Below, one piece after another: positions 210-38,210 of a stretch of DNA of 38,210 nt; the first letter of the stretch is position 1, and every line of letters begins with the position of its first letter. The notes under the pieces are model-generated. The model made no database searches, was not told the DNA's origin, and saw only the letters and a program-made list of their open reading frames with translations. The stretch spans positions 1-38,210 of the IMG/VR virus record IMGVR_UViG_3300036978_000077. One strand, written 5' to 3'. A program made the position numbers and the translations under genes. The stretch is from a virus.

Positions 210-905
210 CTATATCACATCGTCACCTACATATTTCTGACCTTGAGAAGAACGATTGAATACTGGTTGAACTTGTTTGACAAAGTTGGTAGAGTTAGAT
301 GTCTTGAGTTCAAAAATGCCTATCCAATTATTTTCTATTGATTTTTCAAGAATCTTAACTGCAATATCTTTGTTAGCCTTAGATAGTTCTTTCAATTTAT
401 TAGTCAGTAACTCAACTGCATTCTTAGTTGGAATCTTTTTCATATTGATTCTCATTTGAATAAAGTTGATGAATGTCTTGTTAAGTAGTTCATCAGTTCC
501 TAAGTATTTCTCTGACTCCATCAACTTGACAAAATCAGTTATAGATTTTGGCTCTTTGTCTTTTTTATTTTTATCCTTATTTACATCTTCATCATTATGT
601 TTATCCTTATCCTTATCCTTATAGGCTTCTACTTCGCTTTCAATTCGCTTAGGTTTCGCTTCTGTTTCGCTTATTGTTTGCTTTGATTTCGGTCTACTAC
701 CATTGATATAGTTAGTATTACCTTTCTCTAATACTGGTCTTATGAGCCTCCATATAGTCAATGATAGACCACTTAAAGATGGTTCAACAAAGTCTAATGA
801 GTATTCAAATATGGCATTGTATAACTCAGCTTGATTCTCTTTAGGTAGTTCTTTTATAGATTCAAACATTGAACGATAAAAGATGCAAGTATCTCTGCTA
901 TTCAT
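210..905 (-). CDS. Replication organiser / helicase-loader-like protein, DUF6291-like N-terminus (allele A)
   Basis: This 231-aa protein starts with a region of about 70 residues resembling DUF6291 (motifs FYRSMFESIKELP, QAELYNAIFEYSLD, and an ending near NGSRPKSKQ). That domain is common in Bacteroidota phage replication proteins. A charged Lys/Asp linker (about residues 93-118) follows, then a helical domain (about 120-205) and a short conserved tail ending in QKYVGDDVI. Around the circle it lies between the recombination genes and the leader-gene/DnaB region, which suits helicase loading or origin binding. The N-terminal segment and last 25 residues are nearly the same in the allele at 37694-38210, but the middle is unrelated. 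A structured RNA precedes the start codon. The domain family is a moderate-confidence call; the role is inferred. Confidence 0.65.
   Translation of the reverse strand: MNSRDTCIFYRSMFESIKELPKENQAELYNAIFEYSLDFVEPSLSGLSLTIWRLIRPVLEKGNTNYINGSRPKSKQTISETEAKPKRIESEVEAYKDKDKDKHNDEDVNKDKNKKDKEPKSITDFVKLMESEKYLGTDELLNKTFINFIQMRINMKKIPTKNAVELLTNKLKELSKANKDIAVKILEKSIENNWIGIFELKTSNSTNFVKQVQPVFNRSSQGQKYVGDDVI
601..626. repeat. Hexamer repeat encoding Lys/Asp linker
   Basis: The short unit ttatcc is repeated in tandem and encodes alternating Lys-Asp on the minus strand. The same type of tract appears in the other allele near 38020-38045. It marks the boundary between the conserved N-terminal half and the divergent middle of the replication organiser, so it may act as a flexible linker in the protein and a recombination point in the DNA. 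Confidence 0.6.
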
Positions 906-917
906 AACAATAAAAAT

Positions 918-1016
918 ACCCTATGAAGACTGAGGTAGTAGCGACCTTGATTTTACTCTTAGTCTCTCAGTCACCATAGGGTGAAAAGTTTTACAATACA
1001 CTCAGGCTACTACCTC
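918..1016 (-). ncRNA. Structured leader RNA: pseudoknot or terminator/antiterminator switch
   Basis: Three complementary blocks lie in the 133-base gap before the replication gene. In RNA order (minus strand), segment a GAGGTAGTAGC (1016-1006) pairs with a' GCTACTACCTC (942-932). Segment b (982-966) pairs with b' (934-918) as 8 bp, a 2x2 internal loop and 7 bp. The order a-b-a'-b' is that of an H-type pseudoknot, and a' and b' share three bases, so they may compete. b' is followed by AUUUUUAUU and the start codon lies 13 bases downstream. The pairings are read directly from the sequence. Whether it acts as a terminator switch, a translational control element or an origin structure is inference. 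Confidence 0.7.
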
Positions 1017-1038
1017 TGAATGGTGCTAATTTACAAAA

Positions 1039-1422
1039 TTATTCTTGATTAATATAACTCTCAATCACTTTAATTGTTTCGTCTACACCAGTAGAAAACA
1101 ATGCAGCATAACCTACTTCATTCAATGCTTTAAGTACCTCTGCTTGACGTTCAGTATGCTCATTAGCTTTCAATGTACCATCCTTCTTAAATGGGTTAGC
1201 CTTCTCTGATTTTATTTCGATAAAGAGACCAGCAAAGTTACCTTTAGGTAGTGCAATAAATAAATCAGGATAACCTTTGATTGGATTTTGCGCCCTATGT
1301 TTATTTGCCATATATGGACTTAGGTAAAGTCCAGCAGCAAAGTCAAAACGAAATATGACCTTTGGGTGTTTGATTGTTAAGTAACTTGCTATGACCTTGT
1401 AAATCTCTGCTTCTTGACTCAT
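1039..1422 (-). CDS. VRR-NUC-type nuclease
   Basis: This 127-aa protein shows the VRR-NUC (PD-(D/E)XK superfamily) pattern: an N-terminal Glu in a helix (EAEIYKVIASYL), GYPDLFIALP with Asp53, and LFIEIKSE with Glu69 and Lys71. A basic segment and a C-terminal helix containing QAEVLKAL follow. VRR-NUC proteins in phages act as stand-alone structure-dependent nucleases. It is the last gene of the recombination module before the structured leader RNA. Its start overlaps the upstream gene by 80 bases, which is long, but the N-terminal helix belongs to the domain, so I keep this start. Confidence 0.8.
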   Translation of the reverse strand: MSQEAEIYKVIASYLTIKHPKVIFRFDFAAGLYLSPYMANKHRAQNPIKGYPDLFIALPKGNFAGLFIEIKSEKANPFKKDGTLKANEHTERQAEVLKALNEVGYAALFSTGVDETIKVIESYINQE

Positions 1423-5049: not shown

Positions 5050-5244
5050 TTAAAATAATGGTATGTCACAAATTTCTCTAAATGATTTTGTTTCTCCATC
5101 TTCATCGTCAATCCACCCATCTTTTAATTTGTCTTTTTTTCCAAGCCTTTTAAAGGCATCTTGAAAATCCTTTGCTTTAATTGTAAAGCATCCAATACCA
5201 AATTCGTTTGGTGTCCAAATTGTAAATTTTTGTAAATTTGTCAT
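5050..5244 (-). CDS. First gene of the early recombination operon, hypothetical (64 aa)
   Basis: This 64-aa protein has a beta-rich start (KFTIWTPNEFGIGCFTIKA), then a helix and an acidic end. It is unrelated in sequence to the other 64-aa leader gene at 37363, but it occupies the same position: first behind a GTATTGC-type promoter, with a nearly identical untranslated leader (AATCACTAAATCAAA just before the ATG). The function is unknown. The shared leader suggests co-regulated early expression. Confidence 0.6.
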   Translation of the reverse strand: MTNLQKFTIWTPNEFGIGCFTIKAKDFQDAFKRLGKKDKLKDGWIDDEDGETKSFREICDIPLF

Positions 5245-5293
5245 AATGTTTGATTTAGTGATTGAGTAAAATTTTTTGTGACTTATTGATAGG

Positions 5294-5326
5294 CAAATGT
5301 AGAACTATATTTTGATTCTGCAATAC
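5294..5326 (-). promoter_or_regulatory. Early promoter of the recombination operon
   Basis: The minus strand carries TACATTTG (5294-5301), a perfect TAnnTTTG box, then a 19-base spacer and TTG within GTATTGC (5320-5326). The extended block GTATTGCAGAATCAAAA matches the two allele promoters at the window ends. The predicted start site is near 5287, giving a leader of about 43 bases before the ATG at 5244. Confidence 0.8.
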
Positions 5327-5354
5327 CTCTATCAAAATAAACACAATTATTTTT

Positions 5355-15591: not shown

Positions 15592-16971
15592 ATGATAGGT
15601 GTAGCAATAACCACTCACAACCGAAGAGATGTTGCATTAGAAACTATTTCTAAATGGAAAACTATGCTACCTAATGGTGCAGTAATAGTTGTGGTAGATG
15701 ATGCAAGTGCTGAACCATTTCCAAATGCAGATTACAGATTCAATGAGAATGTAGGTATAGCTAAGGCAAAGAACAAGTGCATAGAGTTACTCATTAACAA
15801 AGGGTGTGATGAATTGTTTTTAGCAGATGATGATACTTACCCTACTTCATCTGACTGGTACAAATCATATATTGAAAGTCCTCACCCATTTCTATCATAC
15901 ACATTTTCAATTGTAGGTAGAAATGTTTATAATGGAAACAAACTTATAAAGAATGAGAATGGTCACAAATGGTATTCAAATCCATGTGGGTGCTTGGTGT
16001 ACATCAATAAGGTTGTAGTAGATAAGATTGGTGGCTATGATTTCCAGTATTCAATGTATGGAGATGAGCATTTAGATTATGCTATTAGGGCAAAGAATGT
16101 AGGTCTTATTGAGTATCCTTATATTGATGTATCAGAGCCTAAATTTTATTGTCTTGACCAAGTTGGGAACTATAGAACATCAAGGTTAGATGCAGCAGCA
16201 CAATCATACATAAGTCATAGAAGACTATCTGAGCAAAAAGATAGTAAAGACTTCATGGACTATAAAGAATCTTCTAATGAACTTCAAGAACCTTATATTA
16301 TTACAAGTTATTTTAATTATTCTAAAGACCCACAGAGACGAATTGTTTTACCAAATTCAATAGATGCACTAATACCACTTATAAATAGTTGTAATGATTT
16401 AGGAATTAGATTAATCATCTTGACTAATTGTGACTTTGAAAATGTAGGTAAAACGGAATTTGTAAAGGTTGAGAATCCTGACCATCAATTTACACCTAAT
16501 GATTTTCGTTGGTTAGTTCAATTGGATTACATACAAAAAAATAAAACAAGCCATGTATGGTGTGTTGATTCAACAGATGTTGAGGTGCTTAAAAATCCTT
16601 TTCAGATTGATGATAACTTACTCTATGTTGGACATGAGGCGCAAACACTTGGTAGTGGTTGGTTGTGGGATTCACAATATAGATACTGCAAAACACCAAA
16701 CTACATTAAGTTGTTTAGAACTTCAAACAAATTAACACTATTAAATTGTGGAGTGGTTGGTGGTTCTTATTCTATTGCACTTAGATTCTTTCAAATAATG
16801 GCAACTGAAACTTATTACAATGCTAAGAAATCAGGTAGAGCAATGGATATGGCAAGTTTTAATTATGTTGTTTATTCACATTTTGCAGATACCTTAGTCA
16901 TGGGTTCTAATGTAGTAACTGATTTCAAAGCATATCAAAGAAATAACATTTCAATGTTTAAGCATAAGTAA
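15592..16971 (+). CDS. Two-domain glycosyltransferase (GT2-like plus second GT domain)
   Basis: This 459-aa protein has an N-terminal GT-A domain of family-2 type (residues 1-215): VAITTHNRRDVALETI, VIVVVDDAS, and LADDDTYP supplying the acidic metal site, with DEHLDYAIR as the likely catalytic/acceptor motif. A second domain (about 235-459) has HVWCVDSTDVEVLKNPF with a DxxD-type motif and LLNCGVVGG, like the GT8-type nucleotide-sugar fold. It would transfer one or two sugars to virion proteins, host glycans or modified DNA. It is the only plus-strand gene, inserted between MuF-like and scaffold genes and nearly touching the MuF-like stop (one base apart). This suggests later acquisition. Confidence 0.8.
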   Translation: MIGVAITTHNRRDVALETISKWKTMLPNGAVIVVVDDASAEPFPNADYRFNENVGIAKAKNKCIELLINKGCDELFLADDDTYPTSSDWYKSYIESPHPFLSYTFSIVGRNVYNGNKLIKNENGHKWYSNPCGCLVYINKVVVDKIGGYDFQYSMYGDEHLDYAIRAKNVGLIEYPYIDVSEPKFYCLDQVGNYRTSRLDAAAQSYISHRRLSEQKDSKDFMDYKESSNELQEPYIITSYFNYSKDPQRRIVLPNSIDALIPLINSCNDLGIRLIILTNCDFENVGKTEFVKVENPDHQFTPNDFRWLVQLDYIQKNKTSHVWCVDSTDVEVLKNPFQIDDNLLYVGHEAQTLGSGWLWDSQYRYCKTPNYIKLFRTSNKLTLLNCGVVGGSYSIALRFFQIMATETYYNAKKSGRAMDMASFNYVVYSHFADTLVMGSNVVTDFKAYQRNNISMFKHK

Positions 16972-37362: not shown

Positions 37363-37557
37363 TCAGACATTATCTCCCATTGTTGGTATTCCTTTACTTG
37401 CTAAATCTTTATATGCTTTAGCTTTTTGAGTAGCCTTGTTTTTTGTCCAGTTACCATCTCTTTCATTTAACCAAATTTGGTTTAAGTATTTTACTACTCT
37501 GAAATCTCCATACTTTGCGTTTTGTTCTACTTTGAATGTTACGTTTAAAGTTGCCAT
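37363..37557 (-). CDS. Leader-gene protein of the replication operon (64 aa)
   Basis: This 64-aa basic protein has TFKVEQNAKYGDFRVVKYL and a helical Lys-rich second half. It is the first gene after the early promoter and is followed by a terminator. Its first 25 codons recur at bases 1-75. The function is unknown. The short basic design is typical of early phage host-takeover or small DNA-binding proteins, but no family is evident. Confidence 0.7.
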   Translation of the reverse strand: MATLNVTFKVEQNAKYGDFRVVKYLNQIWLNERDGNWTKNKATQKAKAYKDLASKGIPTMGDNV

Positions 37558-37597
37558 TGTTTTTGATTTAGTAATTGATTAGTGAATTATTGATAGG

Positions 37598-37627
37598 CAA
37601 ATATGCAATTATATTTTGATTACGCAA
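37598..37627 (-). promoter_or_regulatory. Early promoter of the replication operon (right copy)
   Basis: The minus strand has CATATTTG (37598-37605), one change from TAnnTTTG, then a 19-base spacer and TTG in GTATTGC. The extended element reads GTATTGCGTAATCAAAA. The weaker -7 box compared with the left copy suggests a strain difference in strength. It drives the intact leader gene at 37557. Confidence 0.7.
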
Positions 37628-37693
37628 TACATTTATGAAAATATTTTTAATTATTTTTTTATACGTACTAATTTTTATTTTTTGTACGTACAA

Positions 37694-38210
37694 CTATATC
37701 ACATCATCACCTACATATTTCTGACCTTGAGAAGAACGATTGAATACTGGTTGAACTTGTTTGACAAAGTTGGTAGTAGGTTGTTTTTCTGTTTGTTTCC
37801 AATTTGAAAGTCTTCTATTAATATTCCAAGCCTTTTCACCAGTCATTCTCATTTTACCATTTGGTAAAGGTTCTGACCAATAAAAGTAGAAAGCATTACA
37901 ACTATCTTTGCCATACTTATCTATATAAGGTTTGATTTGTTCAATAAGGTCTTGATTACTAAATTTAGTATAGTTAGGTGCTTTAGCACTTATTACTTTA
38001 TCCTTATCTATATCTTTATTATTATCCTTATCCTTATCCTTATAGGCTTCGCTTTCGCTTACAATTCGCTTCTGATTCGCTTCTGATTCGCTTATTGTTT
38101 GCTTTGATTTCGGTCTACTACCATTGATATAGTTAGTATTACCTTTCTCTAATACTGGTCTTATGAGCCTCCATATAGTCAATGATAGACCACTTAAAGA
38201 TGGTTCAACA
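37694..38210 (-). CDS. Replication organiser, allele B, N-terminus beyond the window edge
   Basis: This partial frame (171 residues visible) shares the DUF6291-like segment from LTIWRLIRPVLEKGN and the final FVKQVQPVFNRSSQGQ tail with allele A. Between them is a different domain (about 85 residues) with FSNQDLIEQIKPYIDKYG and NGKMRMTGEKAWNINRRLSNW, a C-terminal pattern frequent in DUF6291-type phage proteins. The start lies outside the window. It likely has the same job as allele A with another DNA- or helicase-binding module. Confidence 0.7.
   Translation of the reverse strand, partial: VEPSLSGLSLTIWRLIRPVLEKGNTNYINGSRPKSKQTISESEANQKRIVSESEAYKDKDKDNNKDIDKDKVISAKAPNYTKFSNQDLIEQIKPYIDKYGKDSCNAFYFYWSEPLPNGKMRMTGEKAWNINRRLSNWKQTEKQPTTNFVKQVQPVFNRSSQGQKYVGDDVI

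Follow-up and report, generated by a model that had tools for sequence, protein, structure and literature searches.

What does the structured RNA do that this phage encodes on the minus strand, in the gap after the stop codon of a nuclease-like gene and ahead of the ATG of a DUF6291 gene? The window, i.e. the whole stretch of 38,210 nucleotides that was analysed, carries here a leader element (minus strand, 1033-905) consisting of an interlocked pseudoknot followed by a U tract and ATG. The leader probably represents an RNA switch of early genes that has not been described before. It lacks an Rfam family, stands at the gate of replication genes in many uncultured phages, and literature searches returned no paper describing the leader motif and none on DUF6291.

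Locus and fold in the window

The features of the locus are as follows.

210..905, minus strand: DUF6291/replication-initiation-like protein (PF19808, E 2.7e-13; phrog_678 'replication initiation O-like', E 1.4e-11), the first gene on the leader transcript
909..917, minus strand: U tract after P2, AUUUUUAUU, with U enrichment in relatives
918..982, minus strand: P2, terminator-like hairpin, 982-975/925-918 and 972-967/933-928 with a 2x2 internal loop
934..942, minus strand: GCUACUACC, 3' kissing strand, flanked by P3 and P2b, pairs with 1014-1006
943..964, minus strand: P3, small hairpin inside P2, 964-962 with 945-943; unpaired GA (966-965) just before
999..1022, minus strand: P1 hairpin, 1021-1016 with 1005-1000 (weaker 1022-999); loop 1015-1006
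1006..1014, minus strand: GGUAGUAGC, 5' strand of the kissing/pseudoknot helix, within the P1 loop, pairs with 942-934
1026..1033, minus strand: TAAATTAG, -7 promoter box like the Bacteroidota TAnnTTTG; predicted transcript start at 1021
1039..1422, minus strand: Holliday-junction-resolvase/endonuclease-like nuclease (phrog_5702, E 7e-11), the upstream gene

The preliminary description of this locus had proposed two interlocking helices of a length not expected by chance, and direct reading of the sequence bears this out. Positions 1016-1006 (GAGGTAGTAGC) are perfectly complementary to 942-932, the two-part stem of 982-966 with 934-918 comprises segments of 8 and 7 bp that flank a 2x2 internal loop, and the helices follow each other in the order a-b-a'-b'. 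The U-rich stretch at 917-909 is then followed by the ATG (905-903) of the replication-initiation-like gene. A perfect 11-bp helix within 133 nt was reached in only one of 400 dinucleotide shuffles, across which the longest helix averaged 6.6, and the nested fold of the window leader has a z of -2.6. Three elements had been overlooked. One is the P1 hairpin (1021-1016/1005-1000), on which the pseudoknot loop is displayed, and another is the short helix P3 (964-962/945-943). The third is a box at 1033-1026 that resembles a promoter, with the stop codon of the nuclease gene directly ahead of it.

A DnaB gene is also nearby, reached across the contig ends. These ends (1-790 and 37483-38210) repeat each other with 89-98% identity and diverge in the middle of the DUF6291 gene, which suggests that the record continues past its own starting point, on a genome that is circular or permuted, and joins two strain alleles. 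Elsewhere in the window, a glycosyltransferase-like gene (15592-16971, plus strand; phrog_1579, E 3e-95) is oriented opposite to the other long genes.

Homologous leaders and covariation

Searches with two flanking proteins yielded 80 and 49 viral contigs, and the leader RNA is present in nearly all close relatives among them, with one copy at each fetched locus and on its strand; the opposite-strand matches reflect the palindromic nature of the hairpin itself. Another 86 stretches came from a pattern scan, and a covariance model that left out the pseudoknot confirmed most of them. Covariation was assessed in an alignment of 43 diverse related phage leaders, and pairing statistics were also collected on 108 unique copies.

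A known RNA family was ruled out, as neither the window leader nor the loci of seven relatives matched Rfam 15 at gathering score and permissive E-values produced chance matches only. Searches by blastn of 50,697 phage records and 72,556 plasmids likewise gave chance matches only, DNA similarity being weak for such an RNA. One exact pattern matched bacterial genomes 29 times, none of the matches being accepted by the covariance model, and no leader RNA was found in 395 genomes from the phylum of a Bacteroidota MAG, in a search run without a positive control. In a Riemerella phage with a relative of the replication gene, the 100-nt upstream gap is by eye without such a leader.

From 5' to 3', the consensus of the 43 leaders comprises P1 with its 9-nt loop strand, an A-rich linker, P2 (8 + 6 bp with a 2x2 loop), the unpaired GA, P3 and the 9-nt partner strand, which is located between P3 and P2. 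Covariation in homologous leaders had been named beforehand as the check on the fold, and it is strong in all helices: 94.6% of cells are paired, 28 of 37 pairs have changed on both sides with pairing kept, and the covariation score is 0.414, compared with 0.151 for shuffled and at most 0.088 for slid alignments. Taken singly, P1 is paired in 97.3% of cells (changes on both sides in 7/7 pairs), P2 in 98.8% (9/14) and the pseudoknot helix in 97.9% (6/9), and P3a varies in a compensatory manner at columns 77-96 and 78-95, with 9 and 10 double changes, respectively. The unpaired bases A19 and GA 74-75 as well as the A-rich linker are kept in group I, whereas more distant leaders retain the topology without that sequence.

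Two relations between the interlocking helices had been envisaged, coexistence as a pseudoknot and competition as terminator and antiterminator, on the ground that they share three bases. Positions 934-932 are indeed common to both helices in the window, but the family consensus is without this overlap: its pseudoknot helix has 9 bp (1014-1006/942-934) and its P2 ends at 967/933, so that the two abut. Judging from the alignment, the overlap is a feature of a subclade or a few sequences and not of the family. As the consensus helices do not overlap, the homologues speak for coexistence of the kissing helix and P2. Competition is rejected, since no covarying helix besides P1, the pseudoknot, P2 and P3 was detected in 151 rows that could serve as an antiterminator. 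Because no alternative helix is conserved, any switch would need an outside factor or kinetics.

The kind of mismatch tolerated identifies the molecule under selection. In P1, P2 and P3a of the 108 unique copies, G-U occurs 146 times and A-C 6 times, which implies that selection acts on the RNA of the minus strand rather than on folded DNA, and the asymmetry argues against a DNA-level structure or origin. It also weighs against a replication element, in which the transcript would prime replication or the folded strand would mark an origin beside the replication genes. That idea draws on the position of the single copy, which is close to the initiator-like gene and also, if one reads on over the contig ends, to DnaB, but it appears very improbable, given also that the GC skew has no switch at the leader and that the leader is found ahead of unrelated genes as well.

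The kissing helix differs from the other helices in that, among the 108 unique copies, its pairing is 99.0% Watson-Crick and G-U is absent from all 968 cells, whereas G-U is used freely in P1 and P2. Its strands occur as 19 distinct alleles, and among close relatives they turn over somewhat faster than P2. Such allelic strictness would suit a concentration sensor or self-immunity system, in which the loops of two RNA copies pair and a rising transcript level (copy number) alters termination, as in plasmid antisense attenuators. This explanation is nevertheless quite unlikely: with both partners in the same molecule, pairing within it should outcompete pairing between copies, and the alleles recur across lineages. 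Moreover, the phages carrying the leader look lytic: the scan of the window proteins revealed neither an integrase nor a repressor, and no copies were found in the bacterial genomes searched.

Promoter-like box, terminator-like hairpin and the downstream gene

A box of the form TAnnTT[TA][GA] stands at a fixed distance ahead of P1 in 107 of the 108 unique copies, against a background of 0.0026 per position. The promoter consensus of F. johnsoniae is TTTG/TANNTTTG, with G at -5 (PMC6847099). When the box G is set at -5 after Flavobacterium johnsoniae, the first P1 base falls within -1 to +2 of the predicted +1 in 105/108 copies. On the basis of this box, the host is presumed to belong to the Bacteroidota. 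A non-coding repeat of ~80 bp, found ahead of different genes at 64-150, 5233-5354 and 37546-37658, is probably a common promoter/operator.

At the other end of the leader, U accounts for 91-99% at positions 2-5 after P2 (107 copies) and declines further on; the tract is weak, with a longest run of 3, in 4 of these 107 copies. A conserved hairpin with a U tract at once after it supports the prediction of P2 as an intrinsic terminator. P2, with its too large loop, was not called by a generic terminator scan.

An ORF on the same strand follows in 106/108 unique copies at near-constant spacing, in one of them ~60 nt further on. These ORFs fall into 12 similarity clusters, so the gene after the leader varies; the clusters include DUF6291 proteins, small unknown proteins and DNA-methyltransferase-like proteins, the names other than DUF6291 being read from the sequences. 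As the ORFs vary at narrow spacing, the leader unit appears to control whichever gene comes next. Ahead of the start codon, a gap of 10-28 nt would leave no room for another promoter, and the downstream gene would thus be read through the leader or its terminator. Inserted gene blocks of 2.3-3 kb separate the nuclease gene from the leader RNA in only some phages (L003, L004, L006, L015, L057 and L064). Gene insertions flank the leader on one or the other side depending on the phage, and for this reason the leader is counted as part of an operon boundary rather than of one gene.

The preferred reading, in which belief and doubt are about equally balanced, is that the element is a cis-acting 5' leader that attenuates transcription of the early replication operon. 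RNA polymerase would start at the TAnnTTTG-type box and produce a leader of about 115 nt, the earliest bases of which would fold into P1. With the next P2 arm transcribed, the P1 loop would capture the 9-nt strand in the P2 loop, and upon emergence of the second P2 arm the hairpin would close as an intrinsic terminator beside the U tract, 10-30 nt ahead of the start codon. The kiss may tune the speed or stability of terminator formation, with read-through giving the replication mRNA and termination a compact RNA of ~110 nt. We infer from the sequences that box and terminator work and that read-through is regulated, and likewise the direction of the kiss effect.

The same features could describe a free-standing small RNA, in which promoter, kiss-closed RNA of ~110 nt and terminator form a unit that acts in trans or as a decoy, the downstream gene being served by leak-through or upstream transcripts. 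Nearly all copies do contain the full transcription unit (box, structured body and U tract), and the downstream genes differ between copies. On the other hand, a start codon adjoins nearly every copy at narrow spacing that leaves no space for an extra promoter, and a search of the phage contigs gave no conserved second match to the loop 9-mer, which makes a free-standing RNA rather unlikely. A trans target of the 9-mer was also sought by counting its matches, and the 9 observed, compared with 2.4 expected, proved to be scattered coding sites common to related phages.

Known systems and distant leaders

Structured RNAs near the start of operon transcripts include the processive antiterminators put of HK022 and EAR of Bacillus, which prevent downstream termination. 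The phage leader is likewise placed near the operon transcript start, but its own 3' part is a terminator-like hairpin with a U tract. In IncB/IncIalpha plasmids, a leader pseudoknot before the replication gene repZ activates translation at the Shine-Dalgarno sequence, whereas in the phage leader both pseudoknot strands lie within or before the terminator-like hairpin.

Two other systems are closer in place and logic. The rep-mRNA attenuators of pT181 and pIP501, in which loop-loop kissing is the first contact (PMC4878617), resemble the phage leader in their position ahead of a replication gene, the intrinsic terminator and the loop-loop kissing. In these plasmids the kiss is made with a separate antisense RNA and the terminator has a competing antiterminator, whereas the phage leader has its partner in cis and no conserved alternative helix. 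The CI RNA of phage P4, which is comparable, together with C4 RNA and the Gifsy IsrK, as a phage RNA derived from a leader, causes premature termination upstream of replication genes through RNA-RNA pairing (PMC4825925). It is processed, however, and in lysogens its targets in trans are the separate seqA/seqC sites, while the phage leader is one interlocked unit with no second site found and no sign of lysogeny in the scanned genes. The C4 family (RF01695) did not match the leader. The phage leader may therefore be classed as an attenuator with a cis kissing loop, set apart from pT181-type attenuators and P4 CI because it is without their defining antiterminator and second site.

Distant leaders, collected with a remote replication gene (L080) as the query, are unrelated in sequence to that of the window. 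In 12 of them (group II), the P1 loop kisses the apical loop of a U-tailed hairpin over 7-8 bp, with 98.8% of cells paired over 7 aligned pairs, double changes in 5/7 and no G-U. In most of the distant leaders examined by script, the loop of an upstream hairpin kisses the interior of a hairpin with a U tail; as the chance rate of such a kiss in a single leader ranges from 0 to about 0.3, the weight of these kisses lies in their recurrence and covariation. By eye, the U tract is missing from L068, which has the kiss, and the partner of the 3' hairpin in L069 is the extreme 5' end instead of a hairpin loop. Sensing of a metabolite had been suggested earlier and is disfavoured by these distant phages, as the topology persists with unrelated sequence; a protein or copy-number signal, suggested in the same place, may be involved. 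A broader proposal, tentative and more doubtful than the attenuator reading itself, is that of a sequence-independent phage device: the first hairpin at the 5' end would kiss, in cis, the loop of an intrinsic terminator placed ahead of the start codon of the early replication operon, and whether transcription stops would depend on the kiss itself. The device would be retained, with strictly Watson-Crick pairing, in phages without any common leader sequence. If the leader works as the attenuator reading proposes, early genes would be under protein-free or protein-poor control, with a terminator tuned by a kissing loop of its own transcript, in a leader that is compact, modular and portable between genes.

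In L068 (4910-4990) and in L267, L268, L270, L273, L276 and L282, the loop of the second hairpin matches both the 5' loop and, over 7-8 nt, the start-codon region, a dual complementarity that suggests a decoy acting on translation. Sequestration of the start codon was rejected as a general function of the leader, being restricted to this set. A translational or stability leader, in which the 5'-terminal hairpin and the kiss would protect the mRNA or govern ribosome access and the U-rich spacer would be incidental, is in keeping with this complementarity and with P1 beginning at the predicted 5' end. It is an unlikely account of the element, however, since the window's group and group II are without start-codon complementarity of the P2 loop and U is concentrated directly after P2 in a terminator-like manner. 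In Nitratiruptor phage NrS-3 (L240, 2408-2499), an unrelated leader of a DUF6291-like gene contains a 17-bp hairpin, the loop of which (GTTGGTCCTT) is complementary to AAGGACCAAC immediately before the ATG, and the resulting a-b-a'-b' pseudoknot would hide the ribosome site.
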